Positions 7,583 to 17,512 of a stretch of DNA of 32,329 nucleotides are shown here, piece after piece. The stretch's first letter is position 1. The number at the start of each line of letters is the position of its first letter. The translations under genes and the position numbers were made by a program. Source of the stretch: Nitrospirota bacterium (lineage in GTDB: Bacteria > Nitrospirota > Thermodesulfovibrionia > UBA6902 > JACROP01); the NCBI GenBank assembly GCA_016214385.1, contig JACROP010000007.1, positions 1-32,329 of the forward strand, given 5' to 3'. Below the pieces are notes generated by a model. It saw nothing but the letters and a program-made list of their open reading frames with translations, was not told the origin of the DNA and made no database searches.

Positions 7583-8587
7583 TCACTGTTCTTTGGATTT
7601 TGAATTTTTCAGTATTGTAACATCTCCAGCACATACTTTCTCGATCCGGCCTGAGGGAAGTTTTACTATAAGTTCACCATCGTCATCGATGTTTTCGGCA
7701 ATTCCTGAGATTATCCGCTTTGCCATTGATACTTTTACCCTTTTCCCGAGGGTGGATGTAAGAGTTCTCCACTCATCGAGCAGGGGTCTTCTGCCGACCT
7801 TTAAAAGGACACTGTACCAGTGTTCCAGCTCTCTCAATATCCGACCTAAAAATTCAACCCTGCTTATTGATTCCCGGGCTTCGTGCTTCAAAGAAGTGGC
7901 TATGATCCTCACGTCCTAAGGCAGGGTGTTTAAGTCAAGGTTTACATTTATACCCATACCGAGGGCGACAAAGCTTATCCTGTCCATGTCTGATTTCATT
8001 TCTGTAAGGACACCCCCAACTTTTTTGTCTCCTATAAGGATGTCGTTGGGCCACTTTATTGTGGCCTTGAGCCCTGTGTATTTCCTTATGGCCGAGACAA
8101 TTGAAACTGCAGCCATGAGGGTAAGGAGTGTCGCATCTTTTGGCGGAAATGGCGGCCTTAAGAGTAAAGTAAAATAAAGATTTACGCCGGGTGGAGAGAT
8201 CCAGGTTCTTCCGAGTCTGCCCTTTCCTTTTTCCTGTGCATCTGCAACAACGATGGTTCCCTCCGGGCTTCCTTTCTGACCCATCTCCATGGCTATGTCA
8301 TTGGTTGATGTGGTTGATTCAAAGAATAAGACTTTTTTGCCGAGGAGTTTCCCCTGAAAAACTCCTGTGATTTCATCTGCGGTCAGGATATCAGGGCTGC
8401 GCAGGAGCTTGTAACCCTTCGACGGCGAAGAATTGATAACATAGCCTTTTTGTTTCATAGCCTTTATCCTCTTCCAGATGCCTGCCCTTGTGATTCCGAG
8501 GGCCTTGCTCATGGCCTCGCCTGATACAAAGGTGCCTTCCCTTTCTTTTAAGAGTTTCAGGAGGTTATTGCCCACAGCTTTTTCCAT
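7583..8587 (-). pseudogene. birA: Biotin-protein ligase/repressor interrupted by in-frame TAG
   Basis: Read through, this is a normal BirA of about 333 residues. It has an N-terminal winged helix (about 1-60), the biotinyl-AMP loop GKGRLGRTW, KWPNDILIGDKKVGGVLTEM and GINVNLDL. The C-terminal SH3-like domain ends in VKLPSGRIEKVCAGDVTIL. Codon 224 (7916-7918) is TAG, followed directly in the same frame by DVRIIATSLKHEARESISRVEFL. Relatives usually have Glu or Gln there, one base from TAG. The first 223 codons keep most of the catalytic core but lose its last helices and the C-terminal domain. Downstream starts exist at GTG 7912. The ATG at 8587 was chosen because the N-terminus fits the family and overlaps the upstream gene by 23 nt. 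A recent nonsense mutation, a sequencing error or readthrough are all possible. Confidence 0.88.
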
Positions 8588-10557: not shown

Positions 10558-11277
10558 ATGGAAGAAGACTCCCTTAATAAAATCTTGCAGCACCTTAAGG
10601 CTAAGAGAAGCCTCGATTTTAGCGCTTACAAGATAGATACATTAAAACGCCGTATAGAGCAGAGATTCCCTCTGACACAAACCACATCTTACAAAGATTA
10701 TTTTGACTATTTGCAATCCCGTGATAAAGAGATCGATGCCTTAATCGAGTCAATCACTATAAAAGTAAGTCATGTTTTCAGAGGCCCTATTGTTTTTGAT
10801 GTGCTTGATTCCTTTATCCTTCCACACGTTATCAAACAGGGCGGGGCAGTACGGGTATGGTGTGCTATTGAAAAGGCACAGTCTGGCGTATACAGCGATA
10901 AGGTTATACAGGAGGTCAAGAAAAAATACCTTGATAAATATTTTACAAAGAAAGGCCAGGATTACGAAGTCGCAGACGAAATAAAGGCGATAGTTGATTT
11001 TGGTTACCACGACCTTGTCCATGGTGGAAGTCCTGCGCATGGAATCTTTGCAGACTATAATATTATCCTGTGCAGAAATGTCCTTATATATTTTCAGCTT
11101 GAGCTTCAGGAAAGAGTTATAAAAAATTTTGCCAGGATATTAAAACCTGAGGGAATTCTTGTGCTCGGAGAGGCTGAGTCAATATCTTTAAGTTGTGCAG
11201 AGGATTTTGAAGATGCATTCCCGGAGACAAAAATATATAAAAAGAGGCATGTAGAAGGCAGCAACTGGATGTCTTAA
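10558..11277 (+). pseudogene. CheR-type methyltransferase lacking the SAM-binding core
   Basis: The 239-residue frame is intact and well started (AAGGA, 6 nt, ATG). It matches chemotaxis receptor methyltransferases at both ends. The N-terminal helical domain is present, then HVFRGPIVFDVLDSFILP, and later GVYSDK...YLDKYF, ILCRNVLIYF and GILVLGEAESI. Between VRVWCA and EKAQSGVYS the family normally has some 40 residues containing the GCxxGEE S-adenosylmethionine loop and the TDI motif. All of it is missing, in frame. The product should not bind the cofactor. No receptor, CheA or CheW gene is nearby. I class it as a decayed gene, although a non-catalytic role of the remaining scaffold is conceivable. 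Confidence 0.8.
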
Positions 11278-14944: not shown

Positions 14945-15021
<77 letters not shown>

Positions 15022-15046
15022 ATATTAATTATTTAATGATTCACTT

Positions 15047-15076
15047 ATAATAATAAGAGTGCCGTCTAAAAGTCAA
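15047..15076 (-). promoter_or_regulatory. Probable sigma-70 promoter of tRNA-fMet/rpmH operon
   Basis: On the minus strand TTGACT (15071-15076) is followed after 18 nt by TATTAT (15047-15052). These are good matches to the -35 and -10 boxes, about 25-30 nt before the tRNA 5' end. It would drive tRNA-fMet, rpmH, yidD, yidC and mnmE. Confidence 0.6.
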
Positions 15077-15149
15077 TGCTACGAAAATGCATAGCGAGCG
15101 CATTCCCAGTTAGCGAGCGAATATTAAAGGTAATAATTCCTTACATTTC

Positions 15150-15191
15150 GAAGATTCCCCGTCCCGAAGTTTCGGGACTGCGGGGAGCTTC
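15150..15191. repeat. Nested palindrome GAAG-CCCCG / TCCCGAAGTTTCGGGA / CGGGG-CTTC
   Basis: An outer inverted repeat (GAAGATTCCCCG and CGGGGAGCTTC) has the 16-bp palindrome TCCCGAAGTTTCGGGA (15162-15177) at its centre. It is a dispersed repeat rather than a standard terminator, as no T run follows. The remainder of 15077-15259 holds only the short direct repeat TAGCGAGCG. Confidence 0.7.
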
Positions 15192-15259
15192 AATTTATTG
15201 ATTTTACTAAATCTCATCCACTTCGGCTGATAGAAAGTTGCCAACTCGTTCCCTCTCCC

Positions 15260-15389
15260 TTGCCCTCCCCTACGACCCTCAGCTTGTTTGCAAAGGTCAA
15301 AAGCATCCCAGGCCACAAATGGCACCCAGCCGAAAAATACTGGAGCTTTCCCGATACCAATGGAACTTTAGAGAAGATTCTAAAGGCTT
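15260..15389 (+). pseudogene. Frameshifted duplicate of the recombinase 5' module
   Basis: This stretch is nearly identical to 15488-15616, the part of the recombinase gene that encodes its HARP-like module. An extra T at about 15288 puts it out of frame, and the first ~20 bases differ more. A frame starting at 15238 runs through it into the recombinase, but the encoded peptide is nonsense after PYDPQLV. It is best read as the remnant of a second, related recombinase gene fused to this one by deletion, or as a tandem duplication. Confidence 0.8.
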
Positions 15390-15670
15390 AATGAGCTTGT
15401 CGAATTTAGGGGGGATTGATATAATCTTACCGATTGGAGGTAATTATGGGGTGACTATCAGTAAGAATAGCTCAGGTAGGATAACAGTTGCCTTCCCTTA
15501 TAACCCTCAGCTTGTTGCAAAGGTCAAAAGCATCCCAGGCCACAAATGGCACCCAGCCGAAAAATACTGGAGCTTTCCCGATACCAATGGAACTTTAGAG
15601 AAGATTCTAAAGGCTTTTGACGGAGAAGAAATTCATATAGACCCTGTGTTGCAAGTCCAGCCTTCCACCC

Positions 15671-15708
15671 CTGTCATTGCGAGGAGCGAAGCGACGAAGC
15701 AATCTCAT
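15671..15708. repeat. In-frame TCATTGCGAGGAGCGAAGCG repeat in recombinase linker
   Basis: This is the dispersed repeat seen at 11304-11350, here in its uninterrupted form. It is translated as VIARSEATKQS in the recombinase linker. It adds residues without a stop or frameshift. Confidence 0.85.
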
Positions 15709-15773
15709 ATCTCTCCGTTTAGAAAAACAAAAGAAGTTCCCTCGCCCCTTTGGGGAGAGACCACCATCTTTAC

Positions 15774-15811
15774 CCCCTCTCCCCTTGCGGGAGAGGGCAA
15801 GGGTGAGGGGG
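15774..15811. repeat. In-frame CCCTCTCCC/GGGAGAGGG repeat in recombinase linker
   Basis: The palindromic element CCCTCTCCCCTTGCGGGAGA... is translated as PSPLAGEGKGEG. It is the same family as 2746-2813 and 30961-31000. A smaller CCCCTTTGGGG hairpin lies just before it. Confidence 0.85.
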
Positions 15812-16630
15812 ATTTTGAAGACCTCCGCAGAGAACTCCTCTCAAGAAAATACAGTTATAAAACCGTCAAGGGTTATATCTATTTCAATAGAGATTTTCTG
15901 AACTTTTCAGGCAAAAACCCCGCTGAGATTAACGATAACGACATAAAAGATTATCTTCTTTACCTTGCAGAAGAAAAACAATCTGCAACTTCCACATTGA
16001 ATCAGGCAATCAATGCCCTCAAGTTTTACTACGGCTCAATGCTAAAGAGAAAGTTTATTTACGAACTAAAAAGACCTCGCAAGGACAAGAAATTGCCGGT
16101 TGTTTTAAGCAAGGAAGAAGTTGCAAAAATCTTATCTTCCGTGGATAATTTAAAGCATAAAGCCCTGCTTATGCTCGTCTACTCAGCAGGGTTAAGAGTT
16201 GGCGAAGTAGTGAAATTGAAGCCAGAAGACATTGACAGTAAAAGGATGCTCGTTTTTCTCAAAGGTTCAAAAGGCAGAAAAGATAGATACACATTACTAT
16301 CTGAAACTACTTTAAAGACCTTAAGAGAATATTGGAAGGAATATAAACCAACAAAGTGGTTGTTTCCTGGACCAGACAAAGAAAGATACATTACCATAAG
16401 AACTGCCCAAAGGGTATTTGAGATGGCATGTGAAAAGGCAGGAATTAAAAAGGATGTTGCAATTCATAGCCTCAGACATTCATTTGCCACTCATCTTTTA
16501 GAAAATGGGACAGATTTGAGATACACCCCGCACTTTATGGAGAACCTAAAATGTAAAATGTATAATTTAGGTTTTAGGTTTGACCCCAAAACCATGACAT
16601 TGCAAAAGTTAAGAAAGAGGTAAAGTATTA

Positions 16631-17050
16631 ATGCCAGGGAAAATTTTAAAATGGAAAAAAGAGGCAGATTCTTGTAAACATGCAGTTATTGTGGATTTTG
16701 TATTCGACAATGGATTGTTTTTTATATCAATAAAAAACATTATCGATGAGCCAGTGTTTAAGGTTTCTATTAAATTTGACAAAAAGATATTTGGTGTAGA
16801 AGGGAGTAAAGAAATTTCAGCGCTTCCACTTTTTCAAAATATCGAATTCTTGCCTCCTCAAAAGGAAATCATGACATTTTTAGATACTAGTGCATCGTAT
16901 TTTAGAAGAGGAGAACCTACAAAGATTTCTGCAAGGATTTCATATCAAGATTCGAAGGGAACGAAATACTCTACTACCATAAAACACAATTTAGAAATAT
17001 ATAAGGAAATCGGATACATACGTAGATTGGAGATGGGACATATCACATAG
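16631..17050 (+). CDS. Unknown protein next to the injection-system tube gene
   Basis: The 139-residue soluble protein looks like a beta-sandwich, with alternating strands such as HAVIVDFVFDNGLFFISIKN and KISARISYQDSKGTKYSTTIKHN. It ends in a charged helix (LEIYKEIGYIRRLE). There is no signal peptide or membrane segment. I do not recognise a characterised family. It starts 8 nt after the recombinase stop and is followed after 18 nt by the tube-like gene, so it is probably co-transcribed with it. Its base and codon use is more A/T-rich than that of the housekeeping neighbours, which fits acquisition with the island. A partner or chaperone of the tube protein is a guess from position only. Confidence 0.75.
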   Translation: MPGKILKWKKEADSCKHAVIVDFVFDNGLFFISIKNIIDEPVFKVSIKFDKKIFGVEGSKEISALPLFQNIEFLPPQKEIMTFLDTSASYFRRGEPTKISARISYQDSKGTKYSTTIKHNLEIYKEIGYIRRLEMGHIT

Positions 17051-17068
17051 ACAGGAGGTGATACAGCT

Positions 17069-17512
17069 ATGCCAGTAGGAACAAGAAAAGACCCCTATAT
17101 AAATTTTATGTTCATGGTAGAAATTGACGGCATCGCCCAGGCCGGGTTTAGCGAGTGCATAATTGGAGATACAACCATAGACTCCATAGAGTACAGAGAG
17201 GGCAATGAGCCTACAACAGTAAGAAAACTATCAGGACTTACTAAGTATGGAAATATCATACTTAAATGGGGAATAACAGATTCGATGGATCTCTATAACT
17301 GGATAAAGAAGGTTATAGAATCTGGTGCAGAAGGAGAAAGGAAAAATATGTCCATTATCATAATGGATGAAGCTGGCAATGGTAAGGTTAGGTGGGACAT
17401 TGTTAACGCATGGCCTGTAAGATATAAACCTTCAGACTTAAAAGCCAAAGGTAATGAAGTATCTATTGAGACGATAGAGATAGCCCATGAGGGACTGATA
17501 CGAGTAAGTTAG
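17069..17512 (+). CDS. Phage tail/contractile injection system inner tube protein
   Basis: The 147-residue product matches the gp19/TIGR02241 family, which forms the inner tube of phage tails and extracellular contractile injection systems (Afp1/Pvc1-like). Visible hallmarks are DPYINFMFMVEIDG near the start, AGFSEC, the EYREGNEPTTVRKLSGLTKYGNI block, LKWGITDSMDLYNW, and the closing NAWPVRYKPSDLKAKGNEVS with IEIAHEGL. AGGAGGTGAT before the ATG is a strong ribosome site. No sheath, baseplate, spike, ATPase or terminator gene is present, so it is an orphan here. It may complement a distant system, be a relic, or have been reused. The family is certain; the role is not. Confidence 0.88.
   Translation: MPVGTRKDPYINFMFMVEIDGIAQAGFSECIIGDTTIDSIEYREGNEPTTVRKLSGLTKYGNIILKWGITDSMDLYNWIKKVIESGAEGERKNMSIIIMDEAGNGKVRWDIVNAWPVRYKPSDLKAKGNEVSIETIEIAHEGLIRVS

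Follow-up and report, generated by a model that had tools for sequence, protein, structure and literature searches.

The window analysed here, a stretch of 32,329 nucleotides, is an entire contig of a draft assembly (2.0 Mb in 182 contigs) and carries birA, an essential biotin ligase gene, whose reading frame is broken by one TAG. The question is whether this stop is a real feature of the gene, which would then be dead, split in two or read through, or whether it was introduced by the assembly.

The birA reading frame and the site of the stop

Reverse-strand translation of birA, on the minus strand from 8587 to 7583, yields 334 codons, of which only one is an internal stop, in the context ...NTLP*DVRIIATSLK.... 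The internal stop is TAG at codon 224 (7918..7916), and the gene is terminated by TGA at 7585..7583. The features are as follows:

7919..8587, minus strand: birA before the stop, 223 codons, with the HTH domain and the greater part of the catalytic domain, to GMGINVNLDLNTLP (translation, Pfam)
7916..7918, minus strand: in-frame TAG of birA, codon 224 (sequence; alignment to E. coli BirA)
7910..7912, minus strand: GTG, the second codon after the TAG and the closest conceivable (candidate) restart codon (open reading frame list, sequence)
7583..7912, minus strand: birA after the stop, an open frame of 109 aa with its own TGA, encoding BPL_C and the last part of the catalytic domain (open reading frame list, Pfam)

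According to Pfam, the N-terminal winged HTH domain HTH_11 (50.1 bits against a cut-off of 25) and the catalytic domain BPL_LplA_LipB (81.7 bits) lie before the TAG and BPL_C lies after it, all above their cut-offs. This order is that of class II (bifunctional) BirA, from which the window gene differs by one in-frame TAG at codon 224. In the sequence as it stands, BPL_C is encoded in frame yet 3′ of the TAG, so it would not be on the same chain without readthrough. The alignment places both GKGRLGRTW and IKWPND in the window BirA; we take the former to be the biotin-binding motif and KWPND to be a catalytic-domain motif. The protein is identical to E. coli BirA at 95 of 319 aligned positions and shares 49-59% identity with 17 aligned relatives. 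Its best PDB sequence matches are BirA and biotin-[acetyl-CoA-carboxylase] ligases, and the alignments shown cross the stop position ungapped; against the relatives, too, both sides of the TAG align with no gap at the stop. By sequence, the relatives of the contig include Nitrospirota and a Thermodesulfovibrionia bacterium. The window birA is an ordinary class II (HTH-bearing) biotin ligase of a bacterium related to Nitrospirota. The initial annotation, which described a birA with one in-frame TAG, homology on both sides and a GTG two codons further on, is thus borne out by the translation, Pfam, the ungapped alignment and the sequence itself. Many of the relatives' BirA matches (loci L010, L012, L015-L018 and others) begin near residue 59-70 and may be without the HTH, which the window gene keeps.

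In the alignment, the counterpart of codon 224 in E. coli BirA is residue 216, which belongs to the adenylate-binding loop. Residues V214, V219 and W223 are placed in this loop, around the adenine base, in PMC2821413. The TAG falls between the equivalents of V214 and V219, inside the loop, and a chain break at this codon would be predicted to cut the loop, with loss of the remaining catalytic domain and BPL_C. The initial annotation had located the stop exactly where BirA relatives read P-E/Q-D. The proline preceding the TAG is indeed invariant in 18 aligned sequences, but the rest of that description is somewhat too narrow: among 80 wider relatives the residue at the stop position is variable (E 32, P 13, K 8, D 8, S 7, A 5, gap 3, T 2, V 1, H 1).

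Conservation of the gene and of the stop

Before the TAG, the window BirA keeps 31 of the 32 columns that are invariant in the 17 other sequences; after the TAG, it keeps all seven such columns. The ratio of identity after the stop to identity before it is 0.81 in the window against 0.65-0.83 in the 17 others. Because conservation after the TAG is as good as in intact relatives, the stop should be either new or not real. An old, decaying pseudogene was rejected for the same reason, as conservation beyond the TAG has not loosened. Three readings fit this comparison: the birA stop arose recently, it is not real, or the part downstream of it is still made.

The stop itself is not shared. Of 61 genomes searched for birA, 56 gave a match, and 30 loci were examined, the window and 29 relatives. 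A central stop occurs in none of the 29 relatives' loci, where the stops are terminal, or nearly so, in the matched stretch. All of the 80 loci from named genomes span codon 224 without a stop at this codon, and three have stops near the C-terminus. A phylum sample of 295 genomes gave a core-region birA match in 271; among the 150 core matches listed, only that of the window has a stop inside (0 of the 149 others). Across these aligned loci, the TAG does not behave as a conserved device, whether for splitting or for readthrough. No conspecific genome was found for comparison: genome contigs gave relatives at 36-52% identity, and viral contigs gave two remote matches only.

These counts bear directly on the idea that the stop is real and that BirA works as two chains, with ribosomes stopping at the TAG and reinitiating at the GTG, and with the resulting chains of 223 and 109 aa assembling around a cut in the adenylate-binding loop. 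The position of the GTG, the conservation of the part after the TAG and the presence of one evident client only, AccB, are all in keeping with it. In addition, an engineered form of the E. coli enzyme, BirA*, tolerates cuts at other sites followed by reassembly (PMC5467174); there, as would hold for the window gene, BirA consists of an N-terminal and a C-terminal piece. However, none of the examined relatives, nor any of the other core matches listed, is split here, and inspection upstream of the GTG reveals only an AGGA one base before it, too close for normal spacing. The Split-BioID cuts given in that paper (Q65/L66, E256/G257, N270/F271 and N273/R274, with E140/Q141 from another study) include none in the adenylate-binding loop, unlike the window TAG. 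Moreover, the engineered pieces were picked as inactive alone, required forced pairing and reached ~2.5% relative activity (PMC5467174). We therefore consider a naturally split BirA unlikely, with a slender chance of being correct.

Substitute ligase, client and reading of UAG

If birA were dead, another enzyme would be expected to take its place, and the initial annotation had offered a second ligase as one way out. A PF03099 profile search of the genome gave two matches, birA and a protein on contig C148, and no second biotin ligase. The C148 protein, of the lipoate LplA type, was rejected as such because LplA-B_cat matches it better than BPL_LplA_LipB and because RRPTGGRAILH replaces the biotin motif. 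Relatives mostly give a single birA match, so a second ligase would be unusual in the group. AccB (EAMKLMNE) and AccC are intact in the genome, and therefore BirA has a client, AccB being the only evident one.

A real, fixed nonsense mutation would mean that birA is dying and that an unassembled or unrecognised ligase biotinylates instead. The genome is rated 98.94% complete and 0.89% contaminated, so about 1% of it may be missing; 11 of the 253 good-quality genomes of the phylum sample have no birA match; and other genes of the window are broken as well. Set against these points are the rarity of second ligases in the group, the lipoate type of the only other PF03099 protein, the intact AccB and AccC, and a sequence after the TAG that is not decaying. 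On balance, fixed loss of birA is doubtful.

No tRNA with a CUA anticodon, which would suppress the stop, occurs among the 38 tRNA genes read in the assembly, an incomplete set (it includes, for instance, no Ile tRNA that bears its own anticodon). Release factor RF1 is intact and has the PVT motif, and RF2 is intact. In a 408-kb sample, TAG ends 39 of 204 long open frames and is the rarest of the three stops. A suppressor tRNA or recoding of UAG was rejected on these grounds, with no CUA tRNA, an intact RF1 and TAG in use as a stop. The remark of the initial annotation that wholesale reassignment of UAG is unlikely agrees with these results, as does its observation, confirmed in the sequence, that metG and the tube gene end in TAG; of what it proposed to look for, no second ligase was found in the genome and no CUA suppressor among the 38 tRNA genes read.

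Alternatively, a near-cognate tRNA might read through a real stop at a low level and so supply the single client with enough BirA. Both sides of the TAG are conserved, TAG is the least used stop, and there are two tRNA-Gln genes (anticodons CTG and TTG), all of which would suit such a mechanism. The lack of a CUA tRNA in the set of 38 and the intact RF1 with its PVT motif argue against it, and because the stop is kept in no relative among the loci examined and matches listed, nothing suggests a programmed site. We regard readthrough as very improbable. With one ligase, an LplA of the lipoate type, no CUA tRNA among those read, both release factors intact and TAG in use, neither a substitute ligase nor recoding is at hand, and a fixed null birA or a recoded UAG is implausible.

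Faults in the same assembly and the favoured reading

The assembly, which appears to be of the metagenome type, has other faults, of a sort that a cell would scarcely tolerate. Its sole tRNA-Tyr-like gene (contig C91, 7509-7593; locus L072, 310-394), which adjoins tRNA-Thr and ends 28 bases from the contig end, has the anticodon GTG (His). The anticodon is GTA in 22 of the 22 relatives' genomes with a Tyr-type match reaching it, a count from which two tRNA-Ser matches and five matches that were too short were left out. The GTG is probably an erroneous base near the end of the contig. The ybeY gene (contig C36; locus L251, 12206-12558, minus strand) matches its family only at positions 67-126, with a frame change and the middle piece gone, whereas in 20 of 20 relatives the match starts from profile position 25 or earlier and is nearly full. 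Within the window, a CheR-type methyltransferase (10558-11277) matches the SAM domain only from profile position 76 while its frame stays open, as would follow from loss of an internal segment or from local misassembly. A Fic family gene (330-1372) lies on two overlapping frames, with the Fic_N and Fic matches on different ones, and, like CheR, is short of an internal stretch. All four faults are most simply explained as local assembly errors; for CheR and Fic, real gene decay is possible. Elsewhere in the window, the span 14945-17512 is perhaps what is left of an integrated element: after a tRNA-Met come a tyrosine integrase (15238-16623), an unknown ORF and a tail tube gene of the T4 gp19 type (17069-17512).

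According to a review (PMC7111523), uncorrected local assembly errors in MAGs place incorrect protein-coding sequences in databases. The present case is alike in that local faults break genes in a near-complete draft. However, the faults differ in kind, since those of ybeY, CheR and Fic resemble small deletions and that of birA would be a substitution, and the birA TAG lies well inside a 32-kb contig, unlike the tRNA-Tyr base. A coding-potential scan for stop-interrupted genes covered 407,927 bases (20% of the genome), and its best-scoring candidates were reviewed by eye; among the candidates listed, no in-frame stop within one gene was seen besides that of birA, which indicates that base errors are not rampant. 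A few top candidate pairs were checked with Pfam, and those with matches on both sides proved to be pairs of separate genes. The frame change in ybeY was a chance find in the same candidate list. A literature search gave nothing on consensus-error premature stop codons or on UAG readthrough in MAGs.

The four options that the initial annotation had left unranked can now be ordered. Assembly error is the best supported, because the same assembly holds an implausible tRNA-Tyr, ybeY, CheR and Fic; no second ligase was detected in the genome and no CUA tRNA among the 38 read, and the split protein, which is unlikely, has no supporting signal. In our view, with a probability of about three in four, the draft, apparently metagenome-type assembly either has an erroneous consensus base in birA or captured a null allele present in a minority, and we infer that the base at codon 224 is wrong or rare. 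On this reading, the living population would most likely make full-length BirA that biotinylates AccB.

Rather than new biology, the birA stop thus most probably reflects a fault of the assembly or an uncommon inactive copy of the gene. The case cautions that, where one base creates a stop in an essential gene of a draft genome, further faults in that assembly need to be weighed before any biological conclusion is drawn. Should the TAG be genuine and the protein functional, this locus would encode a natural split biotin ligase that arose from a single base change, a natural version of the enzyme that biotechnology splits on purpose.
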